The translations under genes were made by a program, and so were the position numbers. This document shows, piece by piece, positions 9,960-15,977 of a stretch of DNA of 64,000 nucleotides. A model generated the notes under the pieces. That model was given only the letters and a program-made list of their open reading frames with translations, did no database searches and was not told the origin of the DNA. The stretch spans positions 62,001 to 126,000 of the forward strand of contig LDXL01000008.1 of NCBI GenBank assembly GCA_001443365.1, given 5' to 3'. This DNA is from Thaumarchaeota archaeon CSP1-1. GTDB taxonomy: Archaea; Thermoproteota; Nitrososphaeria; Nitrososphaerales; Nitrosopumilaceae. Numbering within the stretch: the first letter of the stretch is position 1; each line of letters opens with the position of its first letter.

Positions 9960-10985
9960 TTGGCTGCAATCGCTACTTTGGGTTCCCACTGTGCTCTTCA
10001 AGTTCTAAAAGGAGCAAAAGACGAAGGTCTTAAATCAATTTTGATCTGTGAAAAAAAACGAGAAAAACTTTATCGTAGGTTTGGGTTTATTGATGAATTA
10101 ATTTTGGTTGATTCATTTCTTGAAATTTTAGAACAAAAATGTAACTCCATTTTAGAAAAAAATAACGCCATCTTAATTCCACATGGTACCTTGATTGCGC
10201 AGATGAACTCCGAACAAATAGAATCTCTCAAAGTTCCAGTTTTTGGTAACAAATCGATTTTACGATGGGAGTCAGATAGAAAACTAAAAGAAAAATTAAT
10301 GCATGAAGCAAATCTGAATGTTCCAAAATCAATTTCTAATCCTAAAGAAATTAACAAACTAGTAATTGCTAAAAGATATGGTGCAGCTGGCGGAAAAGGA
10401 TACTTTCTTACAACTAGCGAAGCTGATTATAATAAAAAACGGGACAAGCTTATTGCACAAGGAATAATCAAAGGGGATAATGATCTATATCTTCAAGAAT
10501 ATCATTCAGGAGTTTTGGCATATTTACAATATTTTTATTCTCCATTAAAAGAAGAATTAGAATTTTTTGGAGTTGATAAAAGACATGAATCAGATATTGA
10601 AGGATTAGCAAGAATCCCATCTAAGCAACAAATGGAAATTGAAGATGTTCCATCCTTTAATGTAATAGCAAATAGCCCTCTAGTGTTACGTGAATCATTA
10701 TTAGATGAAGTTTATTCTATGGGTGAACGATTTGTCGAAGCTTCCAAAAAATTGGTTTCGCCAGGAATGAATGGCCCATTTTGTATTGAAGGGGTTTATG
10801 ATGCAGATGCAAAGTTCAATGCATTTGAATTCTCAGCAAGAATAGTTGCTGGTACCAATATGTACATGGAAGGTTCGCCATACTCTACTTTACTGTATGA
10901 CGTTCCAATGAGCATGGGAAGAAGAATTGCATTAGAAATAAAGAACGCAGAATCTAGTAATCAAATAGACAAAATTGTTACCTAA
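9960..10985 (+). CDS. purP: IMP biosynthesis enzyme PurP (formate-dependent FAICAR synthetase)
   Basis: 341 residues. The N-terminal segment ATLGSHCALQVLKGAK and the ATP-grasp body (KRYGAAGGKGYF; GPFCIEGVYDAD; EFSARIVAGTNMY) match archaeal PurP, which converts AICAR to FAICAR using ATP and formate in purine synthesis. The frame begins with TTG at 9960; this keeps the conserved N-terminus and no ATG is available nearby. It overlaps the convergent PEF-CTERM gene by 8 nt at its end. Confidence 0.93.
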   Translation: MAAIATLGSHCALQVLKGAKDEGLKSILICEKKREKLYRRFGFIDELILVDSFLEILEQKCNSILEKNNAILIPHGTLIAQMNSEQIESLKVPVFGNKSILRWESDRKLKEKLMHEANLNVPKSISNPKEINKLVIAKRYGAAGGKGYFLTTSEADYNKKRDKLIAQGIIKGDNDLYLQEYHSGVLAYLQYFYSPLKEELEFFGVDKRHESDIEGLARIPSKQQMEIEDVPSFNVIANSPLVLRESLLDEVYSMGERFVEASKKLVSPGMNGPFCIEGVYDADAKFNAFEFSARIVAGTNMYMEGSPYSTLLYDVPMSMGRRIALEIKNAESSNQIDKIVT

Positions 10986-11463
10986 AAAAGAATTTTTTAG
11001 ATTTTTGTAACAGAATAATTATTCCAGTTATTGAACCTAGTGCCAGAACTGCCCCTAAAGGAAATTCTGGAACGACATGCGTTCCAATAATTTCGATTTC
11101 TTCGGTATACACAGGAACAAAAAAAGTAAGATATGTATCACCTGTCTCAACCACTTCATACTCTACTTCAAAACCATTTACAAGTATTGCAAATTCGTTG
11201 TTTTCAGCACTAATAAGATCGTTTGGTAATGTAATTTGAAATTGTGAATCTTTTACATTTTCTGTTCCAATTAACAAAGAATTTAATTCCTTATCGATTT
11301 CCATCGCAATTACATCTCCATCAAAATCATATTTAATATCAAAAGAATTATCGTCTATTTCCATATGGTAATTTTTTTCTGCATACGCTGAAAGATTTGA
11401 TAGAATTAGAATTGTAAAAACAATTAAAGTGAATGCATATTTGTTTAGAGATTTGATATTCAA
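10978..11463 (-). CDS. Secreted protein with PEF-CTERM-like sorting signal
   Basis: 161 residues. An N-terminal signal peptide (hydrophobic core around 10-24, ending SAYA) is followed by an acidic beta-rich ectodomain and then VVPEFPLGAVLAL, a hydrophobic helix and the basic tail KSKKFFFR. That tripartite end matches PEF-CTERM sorting signals processed by archaeosortases. The gene overlaps phnE by 4 nt, so it is the fourth gene of the phnDCE operon and probably a surface protein cooperating with the transporter. Its ligand or role cannot be read from the sequence. Confidence 0.75.
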   Translation of the reverse strand: MNIKSLNKYAFTLIVFTILILSNLSAYAEKNYHMEIDDNSFDIKYDFDGDVIAMEIDKELNSLLIGTENVKDSQFQITLPNDLISAENNEFAILVNGFEVEYEVVETGDTYLTFFVPVYTEEIEIIGTHVVPEFPLGAVLALGSITGIIILLQKSKKFFFR

Positions 11464-12242
11464 ATTTTAACTTCCATCCCTTTTTGTGCTTTAACAATGT
11501 ATTTATCACGAATTTTTACACTAACAAAATCAATTATTAATACAGTAATTAATACAACTAGCATGAAGACTGCAGCTTTTCCATATTCAAAGAACTTTAT
11601 GTAATTGATAATATAAAAACCAATTCCACCTGCACCAACAAGACCTAGAATACTTGTTTGTCTTACGTTGTAATCGAACATATACAATATTTGACTAAGT
11701 AAATGCGGTGCTGATTCAGGTATTATGACATGCCGAATTAACTGCCATTTAGAAACACCAATTGAATTGACTGCCTCTACAGGATCAGAGTCTACTGCTT
11801 CTATTGATTCGTACTGTAATTTGGCAATAAATCCTACAGTATACATGATGATGGCAAGAACTCCTGCAAATGTTCCTAATCCCACCATAATTACAAACAA
11901 AATTGCCCATAAAATTGAAGGAAATGTACGTGCTGCTGCGAGGATTCCTCTTAATGGCACATAAACAAATTTGCTATTGAGATTTCGTGCAGCCAACATA
12001 CTCAATGGAAGTGCAATAGTAACTCCGACAACAGTTCCAATAAATGCCATTTCGATTGTTTCAAGCATTGACCAAAATGCCGTACCAAATAAGTTAGGTT
12101 CTACCTCAGTCATCTCCTTAAGTACGATTGCTAGATTGGGAATTCCTTTTACAAATTCAGCAGGGTTTGCATCTATGTTATACGACATTGCAATAATTCC
12201 TGCAATTACCAATGCAATTATCAGATTATTTTTAGGGTTCAT
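11460..12242 (-). CDS. phnE: Phosphonate/phosphate-type ABC transporter permease
   Basis: 260 residues with about six hydrophobic helices. The coupling-loop signature is visible around EAVNSIGVSKWQLIRHVIIPESAPHLL, and the C-terminal segment VGAGGIGFYIINY is typical of PhnE permeases. It forms the membrane channel for the PhnC ATPase and PhnD binding protein. It overlaps phnC by 11 nt and the PEF-CTERM gene by 4 nt. Substrate class (phosphonate, phosphite or phosphate) is inferred from the family. Confidence 0.92.
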   Translation of the reverse strand: MNPKNNLIIALVIAGIIAMSYNIDANPAEFVKGIPNLAIVLKEMTEVEPNLFGTAFWSMLETIEMAFIGTVVGVTIALPLSMLAARNLNSKFVYVPLRGILAAARTFPSILWAILFVIMVGLGTFAGVLAIIMYTVGFIAKLQYESIEAVDSDPVEAVNSIGVSKWQLIRHVIIPESAPHLLSQILYMFDYNVRQTSILGLVGAGGIGFYIINYIKFFEYGKAAVFMLVVLITVLIIDFVSVKIRDKYIVKAQKGMEVKI

Positions 12243-13080
12243 TACTATTGTAAAGCTCCATAATTTCTTGCTGAGACATATTTCCTGACTGGAAATCTAT
12301 AATTTTGTCACCTTCTATTCCAATCTCTAGAATTTTTTGACCTTCTTTAATTACTGCCACCCGATTTGCGTATTCTAATGCAAGGTGCATATCATGATGT
12401 ACCATTACAGCAGTAAGATTTAGGCGCTGTTGTGCATCTGCTACCAAATCCATTATTTCTCTTGCAGTTACTTGATCTAATTCAGAAACAATTTCATCTG
12501 CTAGTAAAAGAATTGGTTTTTGCATTAATGCTCTTGCAATTGCAACTCTTCTTTTTTCTCCACCGCTTAACATGTATGTCTTTCTTTCAGATTTTCCCCC
12601 AAGGCCTACAAGTTTGATAATTTTTTCAGCTTCTTGTATTTCACTTTCTGGAAATTTTTTTAATAAAGAATTTAATTTCCCAATGCGGGGTAAAGAGCCA
12701 ATCAAAACATTTTCTAAAACTGTGATGTTTTTTACCAGCCCTAAACTTTGTGGTATGTAGCCTATTTTTGACATTGCTCGTTTGAATTCTTTATTATTTA
12801 TGTTTGGAGTTTGATAATCAACTTTAATCTGACCTTTACTTGGGATCATCATACCATTGATTAGTTTGAGCAAAGTGGATTTTCCTGAACCGGATTGGCC
12901 CACAATAGCATAGTTTGTTCCTCTTTCAATTGACAAAGTAATTTCTTTTAAAGAATAATTTTTAGCATCATATGATGCCCAAACATTATTCATTTGAATT
13001 AATGTTTTAGTTGAAATTGTGGAAAGATTAGAAAAAAAATGAGTTGGCAATAATTGTTTGGCTAGTTTATTAAATGACAT
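12232..13080 (-). CDS. phnC: Phosphonate/phosphate-type ABC transporter ATP-binding protein
   Basis: 282 residues. Walker A GQSGSGKST, Q-loop IPQSLG, signature MLSGGEKRRVAIARALM, Walker B ILLLADEIVSELD and the H-loop MVHHDMHLAL are all intact. Asp-Glu in Walker B supports active ATP hydrolysis. The N-terminus has about 30 extra residues before the ABC fold. It overlaps the phnD stop in a TAATG arrangement and phnE by 11 nt, so the three are translationally coupled. Confidence 0.94.
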   Translation of the reverse strand: MSFNKLAKQLLPTHFFSNLSTISTKTLIQMNNVWASYDAKNYSLKEITLSIERGTNYAIVGQSGSGKSTLLKLINGMMIPSKGQIKVDYQTPNINNKEFKRAMSKIGYIPQSLGLVKNITVLENVLIGSLPRIGKLNSLLKKFPESEIQEAEKIIKLVGLGGKSERKTYMLSGGEKRRVAIARALMQKPILLLADEIVSELDQVTAREIMDLVADAQQRLNLTAVMVHHDMHLALEYANRVAVIKEGQKILEIGIEGDKIIDFQSGNMSQQEIMELYNSNEP

Positions 13081-14159
13081 TATTTTTGGAAGTTATACGC
13101 ATCAAGTATTTTTTGATCTAGTCCTGTAAGTGAATCAATATATTTTCCAAATTCCCCTATGTGCATGGTTGTAGTTGTGGGAAGTAAGGCCTCGGCTCCA
13201 TAAACATTTTTCAAAATATGATTATTTTCATCTTCATTCAAACCAAGCATTGCGTCAACTAGAAGTTTTTTTGTTGATTCTGACATATCAGCACTAATAA
13301 CAAAGACATGTGATGGTACAGGTCCTATCTGTTCGACAATTCTCAATTGATTTTGTTGTTCTGCTGTAAGATACTTTTGTGGTGCTATATCTGAACCAAA
13401 TGCAACATCCACATTATCATTTAACAATAGTTCAAGTGCTGCTTTGTATCCTCCTGCAAACGTATGTGCCTCAAATGTATCTGCCAATGCAGCTTCTAGG
13501 CCAATCAAATCATTTCCTTGAATTTTTACATCTCCATTTGCAACGAGAGTTCCCATGGGTAGAACAAAGCCTGAAGACCCTGTGATGCTAGTAAATGCAA
13601 CTCGTTTTCCTATAGTATCAGAAAGCGAATGAATTGAATCATTATCTGCCCTAGTCCAAATAGTTGCCTGATAGTATACTTTACCTTCAACTACTTCAGC
13701 TGCTACAACCTTGGCTCCAGATCGTTGATAGGCAATCCAAGCAGGTCCTGTATCCATAAAAGCTGCATCAATGTGCCCAAAACGAAGTCCTTCAATTATA
13801 GTTTCATAGTTACTTGGTACAACAATTTCAACACTAGTTCCTAATCTTTGCTGCAGGTATTGTTTCAGTTCTTCCGCTTTAGGGGTTAATTCTTCAGCTT
13901 TTTCTGTTGGTATGAAACCAATTGTGATGGTATCGATTTCAGTTACAGTTGGAAAAATTGGAATTTGTATTGTACCTTTTTCAATTAGGTACTCTATTGC
14001 GTCCATAAATTCACTATCAGAGATTAAACCTTCTGACCACCATCCTGCACTATTTTTAATCCAGCTTGGAATTCCATCTGTCTGCGCTGATGCTGCAATC
14101 GGCAATATTGTTATTCCAAAAATGATTCCTAAAATGGCAAGTATGGTTTTGTAATTCAT
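13080..14159 (-). CDS. phnD: Phosphonate/phosphate-type binding protein with N-terminal thaumarchaeal W-rich domain
   Basis: 359 residues. Signal peptide (about 1-25, ending ASA), then a roughly 40-residue domain with WIKNSAGWWSEGLIS and a following EF/AIEYLIEKG segment, a module found on many secreted thaumarchaeal proteins. From about residue 70 it is a PhnD-like periplasmic-type binding protein (IGFIPTEKAEEL; FMDTGPAW; TGSSGFVLPMG; LNDNVDVAFGSD). It delivers substrate to PhnEC at the cell surface. The TATA-like 11-mer GTTATTTAAAC (plus-strand reading) lies 33 nt upstream and an inverted repeat further upstream. Confidence 0.93.
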   Translation of the reverse strand: MNYKTILAILGIIFGITILPIAASAQTDGIPSWIKNSAGWWSEGLISDSEFMDAIEYLIEKGTIQIPIFPTVTEIDTITIGFIPTEKAEELTPKAEELKQYLQQRLGTSVEIVVPSNYETIIEGLRFGHIDAAFMDTGPAWIAYQRSGAKVVAAEVVEGKVYYQATIWTRADNDSIHSLSDTIGKRVAFTSITGSSGFVLPMGTLVANGDVKIQGNDLIGLEAALADTFEAHTFAGGYKAALELLLNDNVDVAFGSDIAPQKYLTAEQQNQLRIVEQIGPVPSHVFVISADMSESTKKLLVDAMLGLNEDENNHILKNVYGAEALLPTTTTMHIGEFGKYIDSLTGLDQKILDAYNFQK

Positions 14160-14186
14160 ATCCTATCTTCGATTAGGATGAGCTAA

Positions 14187-14197
14187 GTTATTTAAAC
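14187..14197 (-). promoter_or_regulatory. TATA element of the phnD operon
   Basis: GTTATTTAAAC on the plus strand (GTTTAAATAAC for the transcript). Its centre is about 33 nt before the phnD ATG, placing the transcription start about 7 nt before the start codon. The identical 11-mer precedes the winged-helix gene pair at 14973-14983. Confidence 0.65.
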
Positions 14198-14219
14198 AGC
14201 AGTTTTATTCTAACAATTT

Positions 14220-14237
14220 ATTCTATCTTTGTAGAAT
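14220..14237. promoter_or_regulatory. Candidate operator upstream of phnD (ATTCTA-N6-TAGAAT)
   Basis: Perfect 6-bp inverted repeat ATTCTA tctttg TAGAAT, centred about 36 nt upstream of the phnD TATA centre. An extra half site ATTCTA occurs at 14206-14211. The same repeat with the same 6-nt spacer is at 14995-15012 in front of the adjacent winged-helix genes. A position upstream of the TATA box fits binding by a dimeric regulator. Confidence 0.6.
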
Positions 14238-14263
14238 GTAATATTATTTTATTTCAGCGAAAA

Positions 14264-14608
14264 CTAACGTTCTTGACCATTATTTGGATATAAATTCAAA
14301 ACTGGTTCAATACCTTTGATTTTAATTTCTACACCAGCAATTCTGCTTTTATACATCTTGATTTTTTTTCCTTCCTCAGAAATTTTGAATGTATCTACAT
14401 TAACTAGTGCAAGATCCTCTAAATGTGCTAGTGTTTTGTATACGTTTGAAATAGATAATTTCAACTCATCTGCAATTTGAGTAGCATCCTTTGCTTCTGT
14501 CAATATTGAGAATAATACTGATCTGGAACAAACATTTGCTACTGTTTCAATAATTTTCTGTGTAATGTCATATTCATCTAGTTGTTGAATTATGTTTGAT
14601 TTTGACAA
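14264..14608 (-). CDS. Winged-helix transcription regulator (second of a tandem pair)
   Basis: 114 residues with an ArsR/HTH-like winged helix: YDITQKIIETVAN, then DATQIADELKLSISNVYKTLAHLEDLAL (recognition helix around SISNVYKTL) and a wing. No metal-binding Cys set is seen. It is clearly paralogous to the gene upstream (same YDITQK start, same register through the helix-turn-helix). The 13-nt gap to that gene implies one transcript. Proximity and the shared inverted repeats make phnDCE the likely target; this is inference. Confidence 0.85.
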   Translation of the reverse strand: MSKSNIIQQLDEYDITQKIIETVANVCSRSVLFSILTEAKDATQIADELKLSISNVYKTLAHLEDLALVNVDTFKISEEGKKIKMYKSRIAGVEIKIKGIEPVLNLYPNNGQER

Positions 14609-14621
14609 TCTTTTGGCACCT

Positions 14622-14951
14622 TTAATTTGGAACTAAAATAAGTGATGGCTCTGATTTTTTTATGCTGATATCTGCTTTACTAATTCTACTTCGATATACC
14701 TTGAATTTTCTACCTTTATCTGAAATCAGCCATTTTTCTACCTCAACTAGAGTCAAATTCTCAAGGTCAGATAGTTTTTTGTAAACAGAGCTTAATGGAA
14801 TTTTACATTTCTCTGAAATATCAGAAGCAGTTCTGCCTTTTTTAATTATTGAAAACAAAATAGCTCTTGATTCTGCATCAGCTAATGCCTCAATTACTTT
14901 TTGTGTAATATCATATTTTTTTAATTGCGGCAATGTTAATCTACGTTTCAA
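14622..14951 (-). CDS. Winged-helix transcription regulator (first of a tandem pair)
   Basis: Paralogue of the next gene (YDITQKVIEALAD; TASDISEKCKIPLSSVYKKLSDLENLTLVEVEKW). I choose the TTG at 14951 as start because a TATA-like 11-mer is centred 27 nt upstream, fitting a leaderless message, and because this makes its N-terminus align without gaps to the partner (18 residues to the shared YDITQK). ATG codons at 14966 and 14996 are alternatives, but the first lies only 12 nt from the TATA centre and the second upstream of it. Likely autoregulated through the 14995-15012 repeat. Confidence 0.83.
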   Translation of the reverse strand: MKRRLTLPQLKKYDITQKVIEALADAESRAILFSIIKKGRTASDISEKCKIPLSSVYKKLSDLENLTLVEVEKWLISDKGRKFKVYRSRISKADISIKKSEPSLILVPN

Positions 14952-14972
14952 GTATGTGCTATCCATTGCTGA

Positions 14973-14983
14973 GTTATTTAAAC
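14973..14983 (-). promoter_or_regulatory. TATA element of the winged-helix pair
   Basis: GTTATTTAAAC on the plus strand, identical to the phnD TATA 11-mer. The centre is 27 nt upstream of the TTG at 14951, which decides the start of that gene. Confidence 0.6.
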
Positions 14984-14994
14984 CTGCAATTCTC

Positions 14995-15012
14995 ATTCTA
15001 GATTATTAGAAT
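14995..15012. promoter_or_regulatory. Candidate operator upstream of the winged-helix pair (ATTCTA-N6-TAGAAT)
   Basis: Perfect inverted repeat ATTCTA gattat TAGAAT, the same half sites and spacer length as in front of phnD. It is about 25 nt upstream of the TATA centre and just 5 nt beyond the stop codon of cbtA. Confidence 0.6.
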
Positions 15013-15016
15013 AAAA

Positions 15017-15748
15017 TTAATGAGTTTTCGTATGAATTGGTTTGTCAGGCTTGAATCGTTGCCACAAGACACCCAAAATGATAGCATTAGATACCCAATA
15101 TACCAATACAGCTGCAAGAGACATTACTCTAAAACCGTTTACTAACTCTATGGGAGCTGTTATTTCATCAGGGTTTGTGGGCATAAGAGCAAACACTATA
15201 CTCATGAAAGCAGCATAACCAATAATAGATAGAATTTTTTTTCTTTTTTGGAGTTTTTTAGATAAACGATAAAACCCTAGTGCCCCAAAACCAGAAATTG
15301 CAATAAACGAGAGAAACAAAATCCCTCTGAGAACTACGGTGTCGGGATCCCCCACTGTTGGAGGATTTGCAGGATATTTCAGAAATGGAATTAAAAATAT
15401 TGTAAACCACATGATTGCAGCTAGAACAAGAGCTTTTTTGGCATCATGTCCTTCAGGTAGGGCTTTTCTAGAAAATGCAAAAATAATTCCAAACAAGGAA
15501 CCAAAAGACATTCCCAATATTCCTCCAGCCAAAATCTGTCCCCCTTTTTGCCAGTTTCTATACGAATTATACTCTACCCAAAATGAAGGGCTATCTTGGG
15601 CTTCTCCTGATGCAAATAAATTTTGATTTTCAATTCCAATTGCTTCATCAAGATATGGTTCAACTAGAGTAAGGTTTGTTAATCCATGAATAATTCCAGC
15701 AGAAAAACCAGAAAATAACACTATTGCAAGAAAAAGCGACGTCTTCAA
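15017..15748 (-). CDS. cbtA: Predicted cobalt transporter subunit CbtA
   Basis: 243 residues with about six membrane segments. The family features seen are the N-terminal GFSAGIIHGL helix, the KGGQILAGGILGMSFG segment and the Pro-rich loop FLKYPANPPTVGDP. CbtA works with CbtB as a cobalt importer that supplies cobalamin synthesis. It starts 13 nt after cbtB. Cobalt need fits the B12-dependent methylmalonyl-CoA mutase encoded at the end of this window. The ion is inferred from family context, not from transport residues. Confidence 0.88.
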   Translation of the reverse strand: MKTSLFLAIVLFSGFSAGIIHGLTNLTLVEPYLDEAIGIENQNLFASGEAQDSPSFWVEYNSYRNWQKGGQILAGGILGMSFGSLFGIIFAFSRKALPEGHDAKKALVLAAIMWFTIFLIPFLKYPANPPTVGDPDTVVLRGILFLSFIAISGFGALGFYRLSKKLQKRKKILSIIGYAAFMSIVFALMPTNPDEITAPIELVNGFRVMSLAAVLVYWVSNAIILGVLWQRFKPDKPIHTKTH

Positions 15749-15761
15749 ATTTTATTTCACC

Positions 15762-15977
15762 TTAATGACAGGGAAAACCTGCAGCATGTCTCATATCATG
15801 AGTGAGTTCATGTATGAATTGCTCAGCATATGCATCTTCACCTAAAACTATACTGAAAATATGTCCCTGATCATAGCCCACAACAAATAATCCAAAAGCA
15901 AAAATTCCTGCGAGAAGTATTATAGCATAAAGCGGGACTTCGGACTTTGAAATTGTTATGCCCCTTGACTTACTCAT
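15762..15977 (-). CDS. cbtB: Predicted cobalt transporter subunit CbtB
   Basis: 71 residues: one membrane helix (YAIILLAGIFAFGLFVVGYDQG) followed by a His-rich outer segment (FIHELTHDMRHAAGFPCH) expected to capture cobalt. This is the normal CbtB layout. It precedes cbtA by 13 nt. A TATA-like box at 16001-16010 is centred 28 nt before the ATG, so the message is probably leaderless; there is therefore no room for a cobalamin riboswitch leader. Confidence 0.88.
   Translation of the reverse strand: MSKSRGITISKSEVPLYAIILLAGIFAFGLFVVGYDQGHIFSIVLGEDAYAEQFIHELTHDMRHAAGFPCH

Follow-up and report, generated by a model that had tools for sequence, protein, structure and literature searches.

An operator shared by a winged-helix pair and a Phn-type transporter points to control of iron uptake in Nitrosopumilaceae

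Introduction

Few cells in the sea are as abundant as the marine ammonia-oxidising archaea (AOA), and iron can limit them. In an archaeal genome of 1.36 Mb, whose close relatives are Nitrosopumilaceae, the same inverted repeat was found in front of a Phn-type ABC transporter operon and in front of two genes for small winged-helix proteins, which raises the questions of whether these genes form one regulon and what the transporter carries. The first-pass annotation had answered both by proposing a single regulon that controls phosphonate/phosphate uptake. In published work, the phnCDE genes of AOA were scored as phosphonate/phosphate uptake and ecological conclusions were drawn from them (PMC13018155, PMC12753310); a comparative study doubted phosphonate as the substrate, suspected another one, and reported that AOA have no C-P lyase (PMC7490402). 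Surveys of N. maritimus found no iron-specific importer and left open a possible uncharacterised one (PMC6776035, PMC9723733).

Results

The operators in the window

The window is the whole stretch of 64,000 nucleotides that was analysed. The genes of the locus were located on its minus strand in the order cbtB, cbtA, WH2, WH1, phnD, phnC, phnE and a gene for a PEFG-CTERM protein, so that the operators, at higher coordinates, lie upstream of the TATA elements.

15762..15977, minus strand: cbtB, conserved cassette member upstream, with its own promoter motif in many relatives
15017..15748, minus strand: cbtA, conserved cassette member upstream, outside the control of ATTCTA-N6-TAGAAT
14995..15012, unstranded: operator of the WH2-WH1 promoter, exact match to ATTCTA-N6-TAGAAT
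14989..14994, minus strand: additional half-site GAGAAT, which makes a four-hexamer array at WH2 (in the consensus of WH2 promoters, the 18-mer is followed by GAGAAt)
14973..14983, minus strand: WH2 TATA element, GTTTAAATAAC (WH2 promoter consensus, TTTAAATA)
14622..14951, minus strand: WH2, candidate regulator, winged-helix protein of 109 aa, probable TTG start
14264..14608, minus strand: WH1, candidate regulator, winged-helix protein of 114 aa, with a Cys kept in most orthologues
14220..14237, unstranded: phnDCE operator, exact ATTCTA-N6-TAGAAT
14207..14213, minus strand: additional half-site TTAGAAT, its end 10 bp before the TATA element of phnD
14187..14197, minus strand: phnD TATA element
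13080..14159, minus strand: phnD, substrate-binding protein, proposed to bind iron
12232..13080, minus strand: phnC, ABC ATPase
11460..12242, minus strand: phnE, permease
10978..11463, minus strand: gene for a PEFG-CTERM protein, the last of the operon in the genus

Both perfect inverted repeats (14220-14237 and 14995-15012) and both copies of the 11-mer GTTATTTAAAC (14187-14197 and 14973-14983) were located where the first-pass annotation had put them. The two spacers, described there as identical, were equal in length but differed in sequence (TCTTTG and GATTAT), and operator and TATA element were separated by 22 bp in the phnD promoter and by 11 bp in that of the WH gene. The half-sites at 14207-14213 and 14989-14994, as well as a further box at 14173-14186, had been missed. 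The translation of WH2 probably starts at the TTG at 14951, since its orthologues begin there and the upstream ATG would precede the expected start of the transcript.

In 300 first-order Markov simulations of the window, exact repeats appeared at a mean of 0.02 per 64 kb and never twice, and two or more copies of GTTATTTAAAC appeared in one simulation. Seven exact sites were counted in the genome of the window against 1 for the reversed control. The site was enriched in Nitrosopumilaceae, with 60 sites against 11 for the reversed control in 25 genomes of the same family, and 2 against 3 in 16 genomes from other families. A chance palindrome was ruled out by this family enrichment, by the conservation at WH2 and by the simulations. 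When one mismatch was allowed, the genome of the window contained 27 sites against 10 controls, and many of the remaining ones were intragenic, consistent with the chance rate. The 11-mer GTTATTTAAAC was ruled out as a signal specific to the operator regulon because it differs little from the usual TATA consensus of the whole family, TTTAAATAA.

Conservation and geometry of the operator in relatives

A named-genome search provided 80 loci with WH2 orthologues (77-88% identity). When 110 bp upstream of WH2 was scanned, the operator was present with at most three mismatches in all 80 loci and with at most one in 47 of them, mostly 40-52 bp from the start, and the intervening DNA contained a TATA element (usually TTTAAATA). 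The full WH2 site often consisted of four hexamers, ATTCTn-AnTCTn-TAGAAT-GAGAAn, which form two interleaved inverted repeats, and the phnD and FTR1 promoters had the mirror form TTCTC-ATTCTA-N6-TAGAAT. The distance from the end of the last half-site to the TATA element was 12 bp in 52 of 70 WH2 promoters; at phnD (34 of 41 promoters) and FTR1 (14 of 16) it was 10 bp. Since archaeal activators would be expected at a fixed distance ahead of the TATA element, this geometry suggests activation instead of steric repression.

Operators with at most one mismatch were found at phnD (38/45), FTR1 (15/18), HelP (8/8), phnD2 (2/2) and ZIP (2/3), where HelP is the name given here to a secreted FTR1-associated protein. 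Genes inside the cassette or operon had almost none (cbtB 1/69, cbtA 0/69, WH1 2/79), and the same held for the downstream genes phnC (1/44), phnE (0/44) and PEFG (0/22). Exact sites were absent from several family genomes that possess WH2. The conservation across the family strongly supported the earlier proposal that the shared operator joins the winged-helix pair and phnDCE in one regulon. Membership of cbtBA in the regulon was rejected for most species because it has its own promoter motif. In five loci (L076, L107, L119, L138 and L151), a different palindrome, TTGGATnAnnnATCCAA, adjoined the TATA element upstream of cbtB; it probably belongs to a separate regulator, perhaps one for cobalt. 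In another locus (L043:3655), an exact operator separated a distant phnD2CE operon from a divergently oriented third winged-helix paralogue.

The winged-helix pair

WH1 and WH2 were both single winged-helix proteins with about 45% mutual identity. WH2 exceeded the Pfam cut-off for the TrmB helix-turn-helix, and its structural model matched ArsR-type folds such as the heat-shock regulator of P. furiosus and NolR, so a winged helix-turn-helix of the TrmB/ArsR type was seen in both sequence and model. A conserved set of His/Cys metal ligands was looked for in the orthologues and was not found: most WH1 proteins had one Cys and WH2 had none, unlike ArsR/SmtB sensors with their conserved Cys/His metal site. 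The pair resembled OxsR of Haloferax volcanii, a single winged-helix regulator of the TrmB family (PMC9426492), in being small, single-domain and archaeal, in the motif upstream of BRE/TATA and, for WH1 only, in one conserved Cys. It differed from OxsR in being a tandem pair with an AT-rich operator and iron targets instead of hypochlorite, and the Cys was missing in WH2 and some WH1 proteins.

Other targets of the operator

Exact sites were found upstream of sufC in five genomes, upstream of sufB in one, and upstream of a 2[4Fe-4S] ferredoxin gene in seven, which in the genus lies beside a cysteine-desulfurase-like gene. The gene for a siroheme nitrite/sulfite reductase had an exact upstream site in two genomes and a one-mismatch site in the genome of the window, where one-mismatch sites were also present at a ferritin gene and near hemB. 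In alignments of the ferredoxin and sufC promoters, the twelve defined bases were unchanged and the flanks had diverged; in that of the siroheme reductase, the site was kept with one change. The shared operator is found at regulator, uptake and Fe-S genes alike, as in the iron regulon proposed here for Nitrosopumilaceae. Its distance upstream of the promoter was much greater at ferredoxin than at phnD, and the targets may therefore not all be controlled in the same way. The genome of the window also had a four-hexamer site where the gene for a ferritin-like protein and that for the general transcription factor TFB diverge (L168:2056-2079; G000 C8 near 151455).

Exchange of phnDCE with the iron permease FTR1

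The cassette cbtB-cbtA-WH2-WH1 was conserved among relatives, and the gene or genes after it were variable. Among 73 loci with enough sequence, the slot after WH1 contained phnDCE (44), FTR1 (17), ZIP (3), a distant phnD2CE (2), HelP (2) or other genes (5). On a tree of CbtA+WH2+WH1, made by a quick method with SH-aLRT support only, the FTR1 label needed seven changes, of which at least five were forced by well-supported branches, and FTR1, ZIP and phnDCE alternated in one Nitrosarchaeum clade. Among the 25 family genomes, 11 had phnD1, 10 had FTR1 and none had both (p=3e-4; the p-values of this exclusion are inflated by relatedness, but the exclusion nonetheless recurs within genera). Both genes occurred together in 6 of 250 family genomes against 29 expected (phnD1 in 115, FTR1 above the cut-off in 63), and in 6 of the 131 good ones against 22 expected (phnD1 in 69, FTR1 in 42). 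FTR1, the iron permease also known as EfeU/Ftr1, is not homologous to phnDCE and is absent from the genome of the window; in other Nitrosopumilaceae it occupies the same cassette slot under the same operator, often with the second box described below. The archaeal FTR1 proteins were about 740 aa long with a long secreted N-terminal part (L041:3497-5704, L051:3555-5789, L096:12137-14347), and in L100 and L130 a free-standing secreted HelP, which has no Pfam family, was found beside FTR1 under the same operator.

A second box of the DtxR/IdeR type

The phnD TATA element was directly followed on its 3' side by another box.

14173..14186, unstranded: second box TTAG-N6-CTAA, TTAGGATGAGCTAA, a half-site of the DtxR/IdeR type

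TTAG-N6-CTAA was present at 43 of 45 phnD, 10 of 18 FTR1 and 5 of 5 sufC promoters, and in nearly all orthologues the phnD box started 10-11 bp after the start of the TATA element. Of the 48 copies of a tight form, TTAGS-N4-SCTAA, that were counted in 1.17 Mb of loci, about 44 belonged to phnD or FTR1 promoters. The half-site of a single DtxR/IdeR dimer consists of two CCTAA-type repeats with a 4-bp spacer (PMC10317159), and at DtxR/IdeR-repressed genes the box overlaps the promoter (PMC10317159, PMC1382209); the phnD box had the same repeats, spacer and overlap. DtxR-family proteins were encoded in 24 of 25 genomes, with two genes in the genome of the window, and such a protein is the candidate binder of TTAG-N6-CTAA. 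The second box is separate evidence for a predicted iron control of phnDCE. The DtxR/IdeR regulon of actinobacteria governs iron uptake, storage and Fe-S assembly, and the second box is like its sites in half-site geometry and promoter overlap; the system here differs in its Phn-type transporter and in the addition, at the same promoters, of an unrelated operator and a winged-helix pair.

Family, fold and candidate ligands of PhnD

PhnE scored above the equivalog cut-off (TIGR01097). PhnC reached 197 bits against an equivalog cut-off of 266, and PhnD 115 bits against 261, although PhnD belonged to subfamily TIGR01098 of the phosphonate-binding superfamily. PhnD also matched the Pfam family Transferrin (PF00405) with 29.2 bits, above the curated cut-off of 20.3, and its family profile found melanotransferrin (3e-8) and ovotransferrin (5e-7). 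In the structural model (mean pLDDT 82), PtxB and ArrX were the first fold matches and diferric transferrin came further down, so similarity to transferrin was present in both sequence and fold. The ligands of the best structural matches are phosphite, phosphonate or arsenate. PhnD retains the oxyanion loop seen in phosphonate binders, a feature compatible both with a phosphorus oxyanion and with the synergistic anion in a transferrin-like site. D136, Y163 and H284 were conserved candidates for three of the transferrin ligands Asp, Tyr, Tyr and His, lying in DTGPAW (37 of 41 PhnD), YQAT (41/41) and PVPSH (40/41), and D136 was specific to phnD1. Presuming that the profile match is gapless, D136 falls on residue 78 of melanotransferrin, which is a ligand; fragment searches for a residue-level alignment of PhnD with transferrin gave none. 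A transferrin lobe has a fold like that of periplasmic binding proteins, whereas PhnD is an archaeal ABC substrate-binding protein in which iron binding is only proposed. The PhnDCE/PtxABC transporters for phosphonate and phosphite share with the operon a homologous binding protein, ATPase and permease, the same fold and the oxyanion loop, but here iron-type promoter boxes, exchange with FTR1 and transferrin similarity are added, and PhnD has Asp and His where PtxB has Gly and Tyr.

Discussion

The transporter named PhnDCE is probably the missing iron importer of marine AOA, because its promoter carries two iron-type control sites and its operon has repeatedly swapped places with the iron permease FTR1. 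As a whole, we give a probability of about two in three to the reading that iron uptake is under the joint control of the winged-helix pair and a DtxR-type repressor, that "PhnDCE" imports iron and that this operator regulon occurs in Nitrosopumilaceae. The predicted binding sites of the winged-helix pair are arrays of ATTCTn/nAGAAT hexamers, which end 10 or 12 bp upstream of the TATA element at most promoters, and the pair would act at its own promoter and that of the transporter. When iron is plentiful, a DtxR-type repressor loaded with Fe would sit on TTAG-N6-CTAA and block the transporter promoter. When iron, the presumed signal, is scarce, the repressor would leave, the pair would support transcription and phnDCE would be made. 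PhnDCE, whose binding protein shares its fold with transferrin, would then import ferric iron or a complex of it, as FTR1 or ZIP does in relatives with those genes in the slot. The sites, their geometry and conservation, the gene interchange and the targets were observed directly; the pairing of proteins with boxes, the direction of control, the substrate and the signal are inferred from them. The more specific statement that marine AOA import iron by a Phn-type ABC transporter with a transferrin-like site, interchangeable with FTR1, activated by a new winged-helix pair and repressed by a DtxR-type protein at a half-site adjoining the TATA element is tentative, somewhat short of even odds.

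Control of phosphonate/phosphate uptake by the pair through phnDCE, which the first-pass annotation had proposed, was unsupported by our results and was rejected as the main reading. It agrees with the family assignment of PhnD/C/E, with the phosphite or phosphonate ligands of the closest solved relatives of PhnD and with recent papers on AOA phnCDE. No phosphorus gene was seen adjoining the operator sites of the genome of the window, and the presence of PstA was unrelated to that of phnD in 25 genomes (5/11 against 9/14, p=0.43). Two complete genomes with FTR1 (G006 and G021) had neither phnD1 nor PstA; phnDCE therefore does not merely replace Pst. The exchange with FTR1 or ZIP under the same operator, the iron and Fe-S co-targets, the DtxR-type box and the lack of known phosphonate-degrading genes in AOA (PMC7490402) also stand against a phosphorus regulon, and we regard it as very unlikely. 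The genome of the window contained a Pit phosphate transporter and no PstA above the family cut-off, so phnDCE may have a phosphate role there. An iron-regulated phnDCE could also carry a phosphonate or phosphate compound for which demand rises under iron shortage; the retained oxyanion loop would suit this, and in a Synechococcus strain iron limitation raised the phnC and phnD transcripts, which was read as phosphorus redirection (PMC12274634). That explanation leaves the FTR1 or ZIP genes in the exact slot and the mutual avoidance of phnD1 and FTR1 unaccounted for, fits poorly with the phnD1-specific D136 and the transferrin similarity, and is unlikely.

The metal and the binding protein could also differ from those proposed. 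A regulon that serves a different metal or more than one (cobalt, zinc or manganese) would agree with the adjoining cbtBA, a proposed cobalt transporter, with ZIP in the slot of some species and with the resemblance of the WH fold to ArsR/SmtB metal sensors, but cbtBA mostly lacks the operator (1/69), and FTR1, Suf, ferredoxin, siroheme reductase and ferritin all indicate iron, which makes this highly improbable. Another protein might bind the operator, with the pair as a co-regulated passenger, given that the pair has no obvious metal ligands and that more distant WH paralogues exist, one of them in the genome of the window. The operator at the WH promoter in 80 of 80 loci, as in an autoregulator, and the restriction of the motif enrichment to the family with close WH2 orthologues argue against a passenger, and the DtxR-type box is a separate motif; a passenger role is quite unlikely, and the sequences make the WH2-WH1 pair the most likely regulator of the operator.

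Under iron limitation, the proteome of N. maritimus reportedly contains more Phn protein. If so, the link between iron and Phn is itself known, and the novelty lies in the operator and its candidate regulator pair, in the DtxR-type box and in reading phnDCE as an iron importer. If the phnDCE operons are iron importers under an iron regulon, the published phosphonate/phosphate readings of these genes change, and there would be a concrete gene set for testing iron stress in the ocean and a defined operator with a candidate regulator for archaeal iron control.

Two further occurrences of the operator were observed. Two genomes had a conserved exact site 174 bp upstream of a thermosome gene and within the 3' end of an amidohydrolase gene (L022:3626, L029:2739), which may reflect coding conservation only. 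A protein of about 103 aa that had no Pfam match carried the operator in two genera (L169:2009, L068:1616).
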